Part shown: in pieces, positions 523-48,712 of the stretch | Layout of the letters: each line of letters begins with the position of its first letter | How positions within the stretch are numbered: the stretch's first letter is position 1 | Assembly: GCF_000725885.1 (NCBI RefSeq) | Contig: NZ_JODR01000031.1 | Span: 1-64,000, forward strand | Length of the DNA stretch: 64,000 bases | Origin: Streptomyces albus subsp. albus | GTDB taxonomy: Bacteria; Actinomycetota; Actinomycetes; Streptomycetales; Streptomycetaceae | Direction: 5' to 3' | Notes under the pieces: generated by a model | Databases searched by the model: none | What the model was told of the DNA's origin: nothing | The model's input: only the letters and a program-made list of their open reading frames with translations | Position numbers and translations under genes: made by a program

Positions 523-540
523 GCTCGCCGGTGACTCGAG
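523..540. promoter_or_regulatory. SARP-like direct heptamer repeat
   Basis: GCTCGCC and ACTCGAG are separated by 4 bp, giving an 11-bp period, in the divergent region between the SchA/CurD-like gene and the cupin/KS operon. The second heptamer fits the NNTC(G/C)AG consensus seen at other promoters of this cluster; the first fits less well. SARP activators bind such repeats, so this is a candidate operator. Confidence 0.4.
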
Positions 541-559
541 GGACGGTCGTCGTCCGGTG

Positions 560-577
560 CGTCGACGCCTCTTCGAG
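560..577 (+). promoter_or_regulatory. SARP-like direct heptamer repeat ahead of the PKS operon
   Basis: CGTCGAC and CTTCGAG are spaced 11 bp apart. A TAGGCG hexamer begins exactly 8 bp after the second repeat, at 586. This matches the known SARP promoter layout (two heptamers with 11-bp period, then 8 bp, then the -10 element). It would drive the cupin, KS and downstream genes from a start near 598. Confidence 0.55.
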
Positions 578-654
578 CGGACCCCTAGGCGCCCCTGCGA
601 CGGTGCACGGCGCTGCGGAACCGCACAGGAGATGCCGATGAGGAGGCGGGGTCA

Positions 655-1089
655 GTGACCACCGAGATCACGCGTACCGTCCGGGTGCACGCCGACGACG
701 TCGAGGCCAACACCCGGCGCGGCGGCGACATCAGGACCACGCTCAGCCCCAGGACCACCGGATGCACCAGCGGTTTCGGCGGGGTGCTGACACTGGCGCC
801 GGGCGAACACGTCACCGAGCACTACCACCCCTACTCCGAGGAGTTCCTGCACGTCGTCACCGGGCAGCTGGAGATGACGATGGACGGCCAGCCCGTCGCC
901 CTCGGCCCCGGCGACTCGCTGCTGGTGCCCATCGGGGTGCGGCACCGGCTCGTCAACACCGGGACGGAACCGGCGCACGCCGCCTTCCACCTCTCGCCGC
1001 TGGCGCCCCGGCCCGACCTGGGCCACGTCGACACCGAGCGGCCGGCCCGGCCCGAGCAGCCCAACCCGTCCGTCGGCGGTGCCTCGTGA
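655..1089 (+). CDS. Cupin polyketide cyclase (WhiE-ORFII / TcmJ-like)
   Basis: A 144-residue single-domain cupin. Motif 1 is visible as [15 protein letters not shown] (two His and a Glu as metal ligands) and motif 2 as [17 protein letters not shown], a perfect PGx5PxGx2Hx3N. Cupins of this type accompany type II PKS genes for spore pigment, tetracenomycin and pentangular polyphenols and assist cyclisation of later rings. The start is GTG at 655 behind an AGGAGGCGGGG site. Its stop overlaps the KS-alpha start (GTGA), so the two are translationally coupled. Confidence 0.85.
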
Positions 1090-2390
1090 CGGCCACCGCC
1101 GCGGCCACCGGCCGCAGGGCCGTCGTCACCGGCATCGGCGTCGTCGCCCCGGGCGGGGTGGGCCGGGAGGCGTTCTGGAAACTGCTGGCCGACGGCCGCA
1201 CCGCCACCCGCCGCATCTCGCTGTTCGACCCGACCGGCTTCCGCTCCCGGATGGCCGCCGAGGCCGACTTCGACCCCGTCGCCGCCGGGCTCACGCCCCG
1301 GCAGATCCGGCGCATGGACCGCGCCGCCCAGTTCGCCGTCGTCAGCGCCCGGGAGGCCGTCGAGGACAGCGGCTTCGACTTCGCCGCCGCCGACCCGGGC
1401 CGCACCGGGGTGAGCATCGGCAGTGCCGTCGGCTGCACCATGGGCCTGGAGGAGGAGTACGTCCTGCTCAGCGACGCCGGCAAGCACTGGCTGGTGGACC
1501 ACACCTACGGCGTGCCGCACCTGTACGGCTACATGGTGCCCTCCACCCTCGCCGTGGAGGTCGCCTGGGAGGTCGGCGCCGAGGGGCCGGCCGCCCTCGT
1601 GTCCACCGGCTGCACCTCCGGCCTGGACTCCATCGGGCACGGCGTGCAGCTCATCGAGGAGGGCACCAGTGACGTGGTGCTCGCCGGTGCCACCGACGCA
1701 CCGCTCTCGCCCATCACCTCCGCCTGTTTCGACGCGATCAAGGCCACCTCGCCCAACAACGACGACCCCGAGCACGCCTCCCGGCCCTTCGACGCCGAAC
1801 GCGACGGTTTCGTCCTCGGCGAGGGGGCGGCCGTCCTCGTGCTGGAGGAGAAGTCCGCGGCCGAGGCCCGCGGGGCACGGATCTACGGGGAGATCGTCGG
1901 CTACGCCGGGCGCAGCAACGCCTTCCACATGACCGGGCTGAAGGCCAACGGCCGCGAGATGGCCGAGGCCATCCGCGTCTGCCTGGACCGGGCGCGGCTC
2001 GATCCCACCGCCGTCGACTACATCAACGCGCACGGCTCGGGCACCAAGCAGAACGACCGCCACGAGACGGCCGCCTTCAAACGCAGCCTCGGCGAGCACG
2101 CCTACCGGGTGCCGGTCAGCTCCATCAAGTCGATGGTGGGCCACTCGCTGGGGGCCATCGGCTCCATCGAGGTGGCCGCCTGCGCCCTCGCCCTGGAGCG
2201 GCAGGTCGTCCCGCCCACCGCCAATCTGCACCACCCCGACCCGGAGTGCGATCTGGACTATGTGCCGCTCACCGCCCGGGAGCACGCCATGGACGTGGTG
2301 CTCAGCGTCGGCAGCGGCTTCGGCGGCTTCCAGAGCGCCACACTGCTGGCCCGGCCCGGCACCGTCGCCCACGAGGGGGTGGGCGCATGA
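1086..2390 (+). CDS. Type II PKS ketosynthase alpha subunit
   Basis: A 434-residue beta-ketoacyl synthase. The nucleophile Cys176 lies in [10 protein letters not shown], and the later histidine motifs [11 protein letters not shown] and [10 protein letters not shown] are intact, so this subunit should be catalytically active. It condenses malonyl units on an acyl carrier protein in the cytoplasm as a heterodimer with the chain-length factor encoded next. The GTG start at 1086 overlaps the cupin stop, and the stop overlaps the CLF start (ATGA). Unusually, no ACP gene follows the KS pair. Confidence 0.96.
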
Positions 2391-47324: not shown

Positions 47325-47665
47325 GTCGTATGACGATGCGGGTGTCCCGTGATTCGGGGCGTACGTGGTCACGGGAGCGGACCGTGACGGGGGAGGGGGC
47401 GCCTCCGGTGTGGGTGCCGTGCCCGCCATGCCGGTGTCCGCGCTGTGGCGAGGGGCGGGACGCGACCGTTCCTGACCCCGCGATCGAGTCCGTGCGGGCG
47501 GCGCTGGAACGCGATCTGACGCCCTGTTCCGGGTGCGGGCAGATGCCGCGCCTGGAGGTGACCGCCACGCCGGTGGCCGGGGACCGTCCGCCCCTCATCA
47601 GTGTGACTTGCCGTTGCGGCTGCCCGCCCCGGCGGTACCCCTCGAAGGAGACCCAGGATGGCTGA
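47321..47665 (+). CDS. Small Cys-rich (zinc-ribbon-like) hypothetical protein
   Basis: A 114-residue protein with three clustered Cys groups (CPPCRCPRCG, CSGCG and CRCGC), suggesting zinc binding. No known family recognised. It is coupled to the gene before it and overlaps the next by 8 bp, so the three small genes after the XRE regulator look like one unit. Confidence 0.55.
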   Translation: MSRMTMRVSRDSGRTWSRERTVTGEGAPPVWVPCPPCRCPRCGEGRDATVPDPAIESVRAALERDLTPCSGCGQMPRLEVTATPVAGDRPPLISVTCRCGCPPRRYPSKETQDG

Positions 47666-48052
47666 GCGGACGGCTCGCAGTCTCACTCTGGTGCGGCACA
47701 TGCGGTGGAAGCTGCACATCGTCGGCCACCATGACGCCGCGCAGTCCCGTTTCCTGGCCGGGAGCTGGCGCACCAGCACTGCCGAGGACCGGGCCCACGC
47801 GCTGTCCTGCCTCGCGTGGGATGCGAGGGAACGGCCCCTCCCGCACAGCACCCCCGGGCCCGCCCGCACGCTTGCCGGCCGGCTGCGCCGCGCCGCCCGC
47901 GACACCGCGACGGCGAAACCCTGTTCACCGCCGATCCGGACGGGAGCGCCGACCCCCTCACGCAGATGCGAGCCGCCGTCCTCCTCGCCCACGCCGCGCT
48001 CCGTGACGACTGCTGGGACAGCATGCCCGGCACCGGGGTGCGCGAGAAGTGA
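47658..48052 (+). pseudogene. Small hypothetical gene with an apparent frameshift
   Basis: The frame starting MAERTARSLTLVRHMRWKLH has strong third-position GC bias until about 47920. After that the same bias continues in another frame, GETLFTADPDGS to GVREK, ending at TGA 48050-48052. Joining them needs one extra base near 47915-47925. Intact, the product would be about 130 residues. Either a sequencing error or a recent frameshift mutation explains this. Confidence 0.6.
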
Positions 48053-48114
48053 CCCGCGCGCGCCCAGGAGGGAAACGGATGGTTCCGGCGTGGCCGTCCC
48101 GATAATGTCGGGCG

Positions 48115-48630
48115 ATGCCCGAGCTGACGCGACTGGACGCCGGTCACGCCCCGGCGGTGCTGGCCTTCGAGACCGAGAACCGCGACTACTTCGCGGCCTC
48201 GGTCCCCGACCGGGGCGACGGCTATTTCGAGCGGTTCGCCGAGCGGTTCGACGCTCTGCTGGCCGAGCAGGAAGCCGGCGTCTGCGCCTTCCACGTGCTC
48301 CTCGACGGGGACGGGACGGTACTCGGCAGGTTCAACCTGGTGGACATCGAGGACGGTGCCGCGGAACTCGGCTACCGGGTCGGGCGGCGCGTCGCCGGTC
48401 GCGGTGTGGCGACCGCGACCGTCCTGGAGCTGTGCCGGCTGGCGGCGGCCCGGTACGGGCTGCACACGCTGCGCGCGGCCACCGTCCACCGGAACGCCGC
48501 GTCGCGCAGAGTGCTGGTCAAGGCCGGGTTCGTCCCGGCCGGCCCGGCCGATCCGGCCCACCTCGGCGGCGAGCCGGGCACTTGGTACGCGCGCGATCTG
48601 GTGCACCGGGAGCAGAACGGCCTGAGCTGA
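48115..48630 (+). CDS. GNAT-family N-acetyltransferase
   Basis: A 171-residue acetyltransferase. The acetyl-CoA pyrophosphate loop is RRVAGRGVATA, and the C-terminal HRNAASRRVLVKAGF block is typical of RimJ/RimL-like members. It transfers acetyl from acetyl-CoA to an amine (protein N terminus or small molecule). No link to the cluster is visible. Confidence 0.88.
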   Translation: MPELTRLDAGHAPAVLAFETENRDYFAASVPDRGDGYFERFAERFDALLAEQEAGVCAFHVLLDGDGTVLGRFNLVDIEDGAAELGYRVGRRVAGRGVATATVLELCRLAAARYGLHTLRAATVHRNAASRRVLVKAGFVPAGPADPAHLGGEPGTWYARDLVHREQNGLS

Positions 48631-48694
48631 GCCCCACCGGGTGACGGGCCTCCCCGCGGTGGCCCGGCGCCGGGCCGAGCCGGCCGGGAGCCGG

Positions 48695-48712
48695 TCTCGA
48701 TCCGTCGTCGAG
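48695..48712 (+). promoter_or_regulatory. SARP-like direct heptamer repeat ahead of the outlying operon
   Basis: TCTCGAT, four bases CCGT, then CGTCGAG give an 11-bp period, 110 bp upstream of the fusion gene at 48822. No clear -10 follows at 8 bp. The site links this operon to the regulation of the main cluster. Confidence 0.5.

Follow-up and report, generated by a model that had tools for sequence, protein, structure and literature searches.

Bases 1 to 64,000 of a 76,403-nt contig (C31) of Streptomyces albus subsp. albus, here called the window, carry genes of an aromatic polyketide cluster in which direct repeats of TCSAG (S, G or C) with an 11-bp period stand upstream of about 13 predicted promoters. 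The repeats are real and occur far above chance, and their reading as operators of a SARP (Streptomyces antibiotic regulatory protein) is very probably correct. We are confident that they would serve a small SARP, most likely the pair SARP1 and SARP2, predicted by synteny to belong to the same cluster in the part beyond window base 1, across a contig break on contig C7, where two further promoters are taken as certain to carry such sites. The original prediction had placed one SARP outside the window: the candidate regulator does lie outside, but as two small SARPs instead of one, and these are encoded in the portion of this cluster that the window lacks, not at a distant place. The mechanism is textbook; the site map is unusually clear.

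All ten 18-mers quoted in the original prediction were found at their coordinates. On a 10-point score for agreement with a pair of TCSAG halves offset by 11 bp, read on whichever strand fitted better, four were perfect (11765, 12597, 12708, and 16470), three scored 9 (560, 48695, and, on the minus strand, 523), two scored 8 (27099 and 14476), and the degenerate half-site near 44526 scored 7; those at 11765, 12597, and 16470 fitted best on the minus strand, facing minus-strand genes. The non-coding DNA of the cluster (9,946 nt from C31:1-50600 and C7:1-12600) held 15 TCSAG pairs of at least 9/10 at period 11, five of them perfect, while each of 24 other periods (6 to 30) gave one to seven pairs and none perfect. 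An equal repeat density in shuffled or unrelated intergenic DNA, named beforehand as evidence that would count against the reading, was not seen: 400 dinucleotide shuffles gave a mean of 2.6 pairs (maximum 9) and 0.10 perfect pairs (maximum 2), and 25,575 nt of unrelated non-coding DNA from the same genome gave five pairs at period 11, one perfect. Ten related clusters (57,973 nt non-coding) contained 130 pairs at period 11, 21 perfect (other periods: 6-33, with 0-5 perfect). Across the genome (7.63 Mb), TCSAG-N6-TCSAG occurred 61 times and the pattern read backwards 28 times; four of the 61 were on C31, all intergenic within the cluster, and two on C7, one of these beside the SARP genes.

The distance from the repeats to the -10 hexamer points in the same direction. 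From 109 sites located at most 450 bp from a gene start, 69 were kept (less than 75% alike), with no selection on downstream letters. Counted from the last TCSAG, the hexamer NANNNT began at 10 bp in 25 of the 69 and at 21 bp in 12, and each other spacing from 3 to 20 bp was found zero to two times. Ten bases after TCGAG are eight after TCGAGXX, hence the layout matches the published one, in which the ActII-ORF4/DnrI heptamer is written TCGAGXX with 4-bp spacers (excerpts of PMC6510168) and the 3' repeat lies 8 bp from the -10 (PMC10936776, in part). Both features expected of a SARP promoter, namely heptameric direct repeats with a period of 11 (or 22) bp, here 11 bp (by the period scan, the shuffles, and the comparison with other DNA) and a 3' repeat 8 bp from the -10, were thus found, and the 21-bp spacing would be that of one further, degenerate repeat. 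The repeats of the heptamer originally written NNTC(G/C)AG hold, but its frame does not, being best set as TCGAGXX such that the 8-bp gap ends at the -10. Counting the -10 spacing over non-redundant sites provides a clean confirmation of the SARP promoter model from sequence only.

The ketosynthase-side promoter provides an example of the longer spacing. Alignment of ten such promoters revealed conserved islands amid otherwise unalignable DNA: TTCGAG in seven of the ten (TTGAG or TCAAG in the rest), an invariant TAG, CTGCGACGGT with at most one base changed, and a -10 of GACGGT in nine and GAAGGT in one. TAGGCG (586-591) is present 8 bp after position 577, as had been claimed, but its reading as the -10 was rejected, given that the TAG occupies the expected position of a third repeat and has NANNNT 10 bp behind it in 10/10. 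TAGGCG is more likely the end of a third, degenerate repeat, CCCCTAG, with the true -10, GACGGT, further on at 599-604. The GGATGCTGCGC said to be shared at equal distance by the exporter and short-chain dehydrogenase (SDR) promoters is literally present in both.

Nine relatives supplied the 24 non-redundant sites of a 34-column matrix, with which we scanned DNA of the S. albus genome, itself absent from the training set. The cluster (60,200 nt) returned 11 matches of at least 15 bits, all 11 non-coding, starting at 571, 11749, 12581, 12708, 14476, 16454, 23086, 27099, and 48695 in the window and at 1626 and 7368 on C7. No match of at least 15 bits was found in 484,803 nt of background from the same genome (best, 13.7 bits), which is not a random sample: it comprised 20 stretches placed at fixed round coordinates, the starts of three contigs, and the C31 end. 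C7:8601-40000, which may belong to the regulon, and C3:120001-140000 were counted separately from the background, the former giving three non-coding and one coding match of at least 15 bits. Across ten genomes, 76 of 103 regions upstream of 15 transcription-unit head genes reached 12 bits (13/15 in the S. albus genome), as did none of 134 regions upstream of 17 internal or other cluster genes. Shifting one spacing by 1 bp reduced the 76 to 5, 5, 14, or 11 of 103.

A six-frame search for the BTAD domain confirmed that the window holds no SARP gene, all eight matches in the genome being on other contigs. The search of flanking DNA advised in the original prediction yielded two SARP genes on the neighbouring contig C7. 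From its start, C7 encodes, in order, a multicopper oxidase, a polyketide cyclase, an acyl carrier protein (ACP), a ketoreductase, a SchA/CurD-domain protein, and an anthrone oxygenase, followed on the opposite strand by SARP1 (5480-6352), a type II thioesterase (6496-7320), and SARP2 (7433-8296). SARP1 (290 aa) and SARP2 (287 aa) each have an N-terminal OmpR-type DNA-binding domain (Trans_reg_C, 6e-08 and 7.5e-09, respectively), then BTAD (1.8e-49 and 2.2e-46), and nothing further, as is typical of small SARPs. Synteny was assessed in 47 loci (48 fetched), 29 of which have a ketosynthase at least 75% identical. A SARP1 homolog was found in 24 of these 29 and at 60% identity or more in 22, the loci without one being L023, L027, L039, L054, and L067.

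The two contigs appear to be parts of one locus. In seven loci the SchA/CurD gene is followed, after 24-102 bases, by a multicopper oxidase gene, matching the step from the C31 edge to the C7 start, and the C31 and C7 parts are contiguous in related genomes. Window bases 1..86 are a repeat at the contig edge, of which contigs C22 and C23 bear identical copies at their ends, and C7 opens with 102 bases that are found again where C39 starts and at an end of C4. One mobile element in three copies would be expected to leave three contig ends of each kind after assembly, which suggests that both edge repeats derive from such an element, inserted just behind the SchA/CurD gene. C31 starting in one repeat and C7, with the SARPs, in another would explain why the window lacks a SARP.

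These genes allow a mechanism to be proposed. Two or three heptamers (consensus TCSAGNN) with an 11-bp period would stop 8 bp short of a -10 hexamer (NANNNT), and a SARP dimer bound to them would stand in for a proper -35 and bring in RNA polymerase, as for AfsR. There, a pair of protomers occupies the two 11-bp repeats side by side, overlapping the weak -35 and touching sigma region 4 and the core polymerase (excerpts of PMC10936776). The same arrangement would switch on about 13 window promoters, and we infer that SARP1 and SARP2 bind the predicted sites and control transcription from them. The regions upstream of SARP1 and SARP2 carry no site of their own (-0.4 and -2.9 bits, respectively), whereas three repeats (24.3 bits) precede the thioesterase gene, the same-strand neighbour immediately upstream of SARP1. 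This pattern suggests that SARP2 acts first, activating the thioesterase-SARP1 pair, and that SARP1, with feedback, would then drive the rest. SARP1 and SARP2 aligned with the SARP domain of AfsR (E 4.9e-41 and 9.5e-31); at two AfsR contact positions (numbering inferred from chain offsets), T88 is kept as Thr and R92 is Gln in both, thus the sequence cannot assign sites to one SARP or the other.

Several points weigh against assigning the sites to these SARPs, or temper the numbers behind that assignment. The join of C31 to C7 is indirect, being drawn from synteny and contig-end repeats, and the two contig ends share no exact overlap of more than 5 bases. Wherever both can be seen in the nine close relatives, the cyclase-ACP-ketoreductase operon is inverted relative to C7 (L017:1726-3941 versus L024-L029), and Gln at position 92 departs from the AfsR contact in both proteins. 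The -10 columns of the matrix were fixed by the choice of sites, which were picked for having a -10, and the count of 76 in 103 is biased, the 15 heads having been picked for sites in the S. albus genome, such that the fair comparison is with the spacing controls. Counts across the nine relatives, which are close kin, are non-independent. The SchA/CurD site scores low both here (4.7 bits) and in nine relatives (5.9-10.0 bits), the relatives' counterparts of the glycosyltransferase site (8.0-9.5 bits) fall under the 12-bit threshold, and sites are absent from some relatives before the major facilitator superfamily (MFS) exporter gene (3/5), the FAD gene at 14564 (3/8), and the SDR gene (2/5).

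Assignment to SARP1 and SARP2 can be set against three alternatives. Another SARP of the same genome, such as that at C3:131535 or a large AfsR-type protein, might use the operators, given six other BTAD matches and the overlap of motifs between family members. This is improbable, since the sites are restricted in the scanned DNA to the cluster and its neighbour (no match of at least 15 bits in the 485-kb background or in C3:120001-140000) and SARP1 accompanies the cluster in 22/29 related loci. The PHO box, recognized by PhoP, is built of GTTCA-type 11-bp direct repeat units. Use of the sites by PhoP or another OmpR-family regulator with 11-bp direct repeats is less probable still: PhoP and AfsR do compete at overlapping afsS sites (the relevant section of PMC10972967), but the repeats here have a TCSAG core, sit at a fixed distance directly upstream of the -10, and were not found across the 485-kb genome background. 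Chance repeats in a GC-rich genome, in which single TCGAG-like halves are common and other periods yield pairs too (1-7 per period), are ruled out for practical purposes by the period, -10 spacing, conservation, and background tests.

With control by SARP1 and SARP2 as the preferred reading, the sites resemble several known systems. As at ActII-ORF4 and DnrI promoters, which also belong to type II polyketide clusters, TCGAGXX heptamers with 4-bp spacers lie upstream of the -10 (PMC6510168, as excerpted) in two or three repeats (PMC10972967, as excerpted). Unlike those promoters, the third base here is G or C (TCSAG), more promoters carry sites, and binding is only predicted. FdmR1 of the fredericamycin (pentangular polyphenol) cluster, which is of a related class, compared through the description in part of a review (PMC10972967), is likewise a SARP with a three-heptamer site, upstream of fdmD. 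The AfsR-afsS complex shares the 11-bp repeats, the 8 bp between 3' repeat and -10, and the weak -35. AfsR differs in being a large protein, in its repeat, CGTT(T/C)ATCG, and in having R92 where both SARPs here have Q. The positions, strands, and scores of the 13 predicted sites in the window are listed in Table 1.

Table 1. Predicted SARP-type promoter sites in the window, with matrix scores in the window and in relatives.
Predicted promoter and genes behind it	Position	Strand	Bits	-10	Repeats and remarks	Relatives
Repeat pair facing SchA/CurD-domain gene (87-509 or shorter)	524..541	-	4.7	imperfect	9/10 at period 11; weak	
Three-repeat site, cupin-ketosynthase-chain-length-factor operon	560..604	+	20.7	GACGGT	CGTCGAC, CTTCGAG, CCCCTAG, then 10 bp	
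MFS exporter gene	11749..11782	-	25.7	GATGCT	10/10	
SDR gene	12581..12614	-	21.9	GATGCT	10/10	
Three-repeat site, multicopper-oxidase-type gene	12697..12741	+	22.5	CACCCT	overlapping pairs at 12697 and 12708	
FAD-dependent oxygenase gene (14564-15778)	14476..14509	+	17.7	TACGCT	second repeat degenerate	5/8 at least 12 bits
Glyoxalase-fold gene (start near 16388)	16454..16487	-	17.8	TGTGCT (without the A)	10/10	
Three-repeat site, halogenase-like FAD gene and POT, O-methyltransferase, and luciferase-type genes behind it	16500..16544	+	12.1	CACCGT		8/9 at 15.9-19.9 bits, one at 0.6
Sodium/hydrogen-exchanger gene (21699-23000)	23086..23119	-	15.4	TACCGT		4/5 at 20.3-23.2 bits, one at 1.9
FAD oxygenase gene (25346-26959) and O-methyltransferase gene behind it; probable	27008..27041	-	12.5			3/3 at 16.4-19.4 bits
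O-methyltransferase (27186) and FAD (28243) genes	27099..27132	+	17.5	GACTCT		2/2 at 16.8-17.7 bits
Degenerate three-repeat site, glycosyltransferase-asparagine synthase-P450 genes	44496..44540	-	9.4	CACGGT	weak	
ABM/dehydrogenase fusion gene (48822-50087)	48695..48728	+	25.1	GACCGT		4/4 at 22.1-24.1 bits

The sites listed in the original prediction all reappear in this map, but the list was incomplete, missing those at 16500-16544 (+), 23086-23119 (-), and 27008-27041 (-). The degenerate half-site near 44526 is present, within the fuller three-repeat site at 44496-44540 (-) that surrounds it. Assigning the repeat at 16470 to the plus-strand FAD gene, as its promoter, was considered and rejected: both strands match, but that gene has a separate conserved three-repeat site of its own, at 16500-16544. 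The map states in testable form which promoters of an uncharacterised aromatic polyketide cluster would answer to its SARPs, names the activator to overexpress for waking the cluster, and offers a shared operator by which true cluster borders can be traced across an assembly gap.

Gene calls were made with our own GC-frame caller, and Pfam was run on 42 of the 53 window gene calls. The ketosynthase alpha and chain-length factor of a type II polyketide synthase (PKS) are encoded at 1086..3664 (+) (PF00109/PF02801), no carrier protein was found among the 42 scanned window gene calls, and an asparagine-synthase-type amidotransferase, a hallmark of polycyclic-xanthone clusters, is encoded at 41415..43271 (-) (Pfam; TIGR01536). 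Polycyclic-xanthone clusters combine a minimal type II PKS, cyclases, monooxygenases, and an asparagine synthetase (excerpts of PMC9469721). Pfam identified a minimal type II PKS, cyclases, flavin oxygenases, and asparagine synthase in the window and C7 together, and the cluster would accordingly be of the polycyclic-xanthone/pentangular polyphenol type. Clusters of the xantholipin/lanthomicin/albofungin type likewise combine a type II PKS with several FAD oxygenases, asparagine synthase, P450, and O-methyltransferases (PMC9127795 and PMC9469721, both in part), and that of lanthomicin includes a SARP gene (PMC9127795, in part). The cluster described here differs from them in its glycosyltransferase, its apparent insertions, and the adjoining acyl-ligase/modular PKS block. 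Our literature search found no site map of clusters of this type. Streptomyces qinglanensis is reported to make a xantholipin analogue from a xantholipin-like cluster (excerpts of PMC7281499), which is not necessarily the syntenic locus L024 carried by the type-strain genome of that species.

In three relatives, the counterparts of the window genes at 39-44.5 kb and 48.8-51.6 kb directly adjoin the methyltransferase-oxygenase pair of 27-30 kb, and therefore belong to the cluster. What lies between, at about 30-39 kb and 44.5-48.6 kb, has the look of inserted DNA. These candidate insertions hold TetR/MMPL, GSP_synth, HTH, and other genes, which are absent at the syntenic position in the three relatives.

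Behind the SARPs on C7, genes encoding YcaO, a kinase/response regulator, a P450, an acyl-AMP ligase, further proteins, and a modular PKS are kept beside SARP2 in relatives. The block of acyl-AMP ligase, modular PKS, carrier proteins, and additional genes at C7:13400-34000 (L017/L018) possibly forms one supercluster with the window. The acyl-AMP-ligase gene on C7 (29806-31599) is preceded by two sites, of 17.0 and 17.5 bits, and in all six relatives that have the gene within the fetched stretch two sites of 13.0-21.6 bits lie 70-105 and 259-363 bp upstream; the ligase stretches of the relatives were outside matrix training, and a seventh stretch ends before the gene. The regulon thus probably extends to the neighbouring acyl-ligase/modular-PKS operon. 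More tentatively, and with the balance still tipped against it, a cascade from SARP2 to thioesterase II-SARP1 might drive a conserved supercluster of about 83 kb, in which a xantholipin-type pathway and the acyl-AMP-ligase/acyl-CoA-dehydrogenase/modular-PKS block would make one acylated compound or two co-ordinated ones.

Lesser matches were also recorded. The site before the GH15 gene (C7:33811) recurs in one of four relatives and is doubtful. Three relatives keep a match of 16.5-17.7 bits (L018:8136-8169; L141-L143) that lies in coding sequence ahead of a gene inside the acyl-ligase operon; coding conservation may explain its retention. A tRNA-Ser called by ARAGORN at 950-1033 (-) falls within the cupin coding sequence; it is probably false and was set aside.

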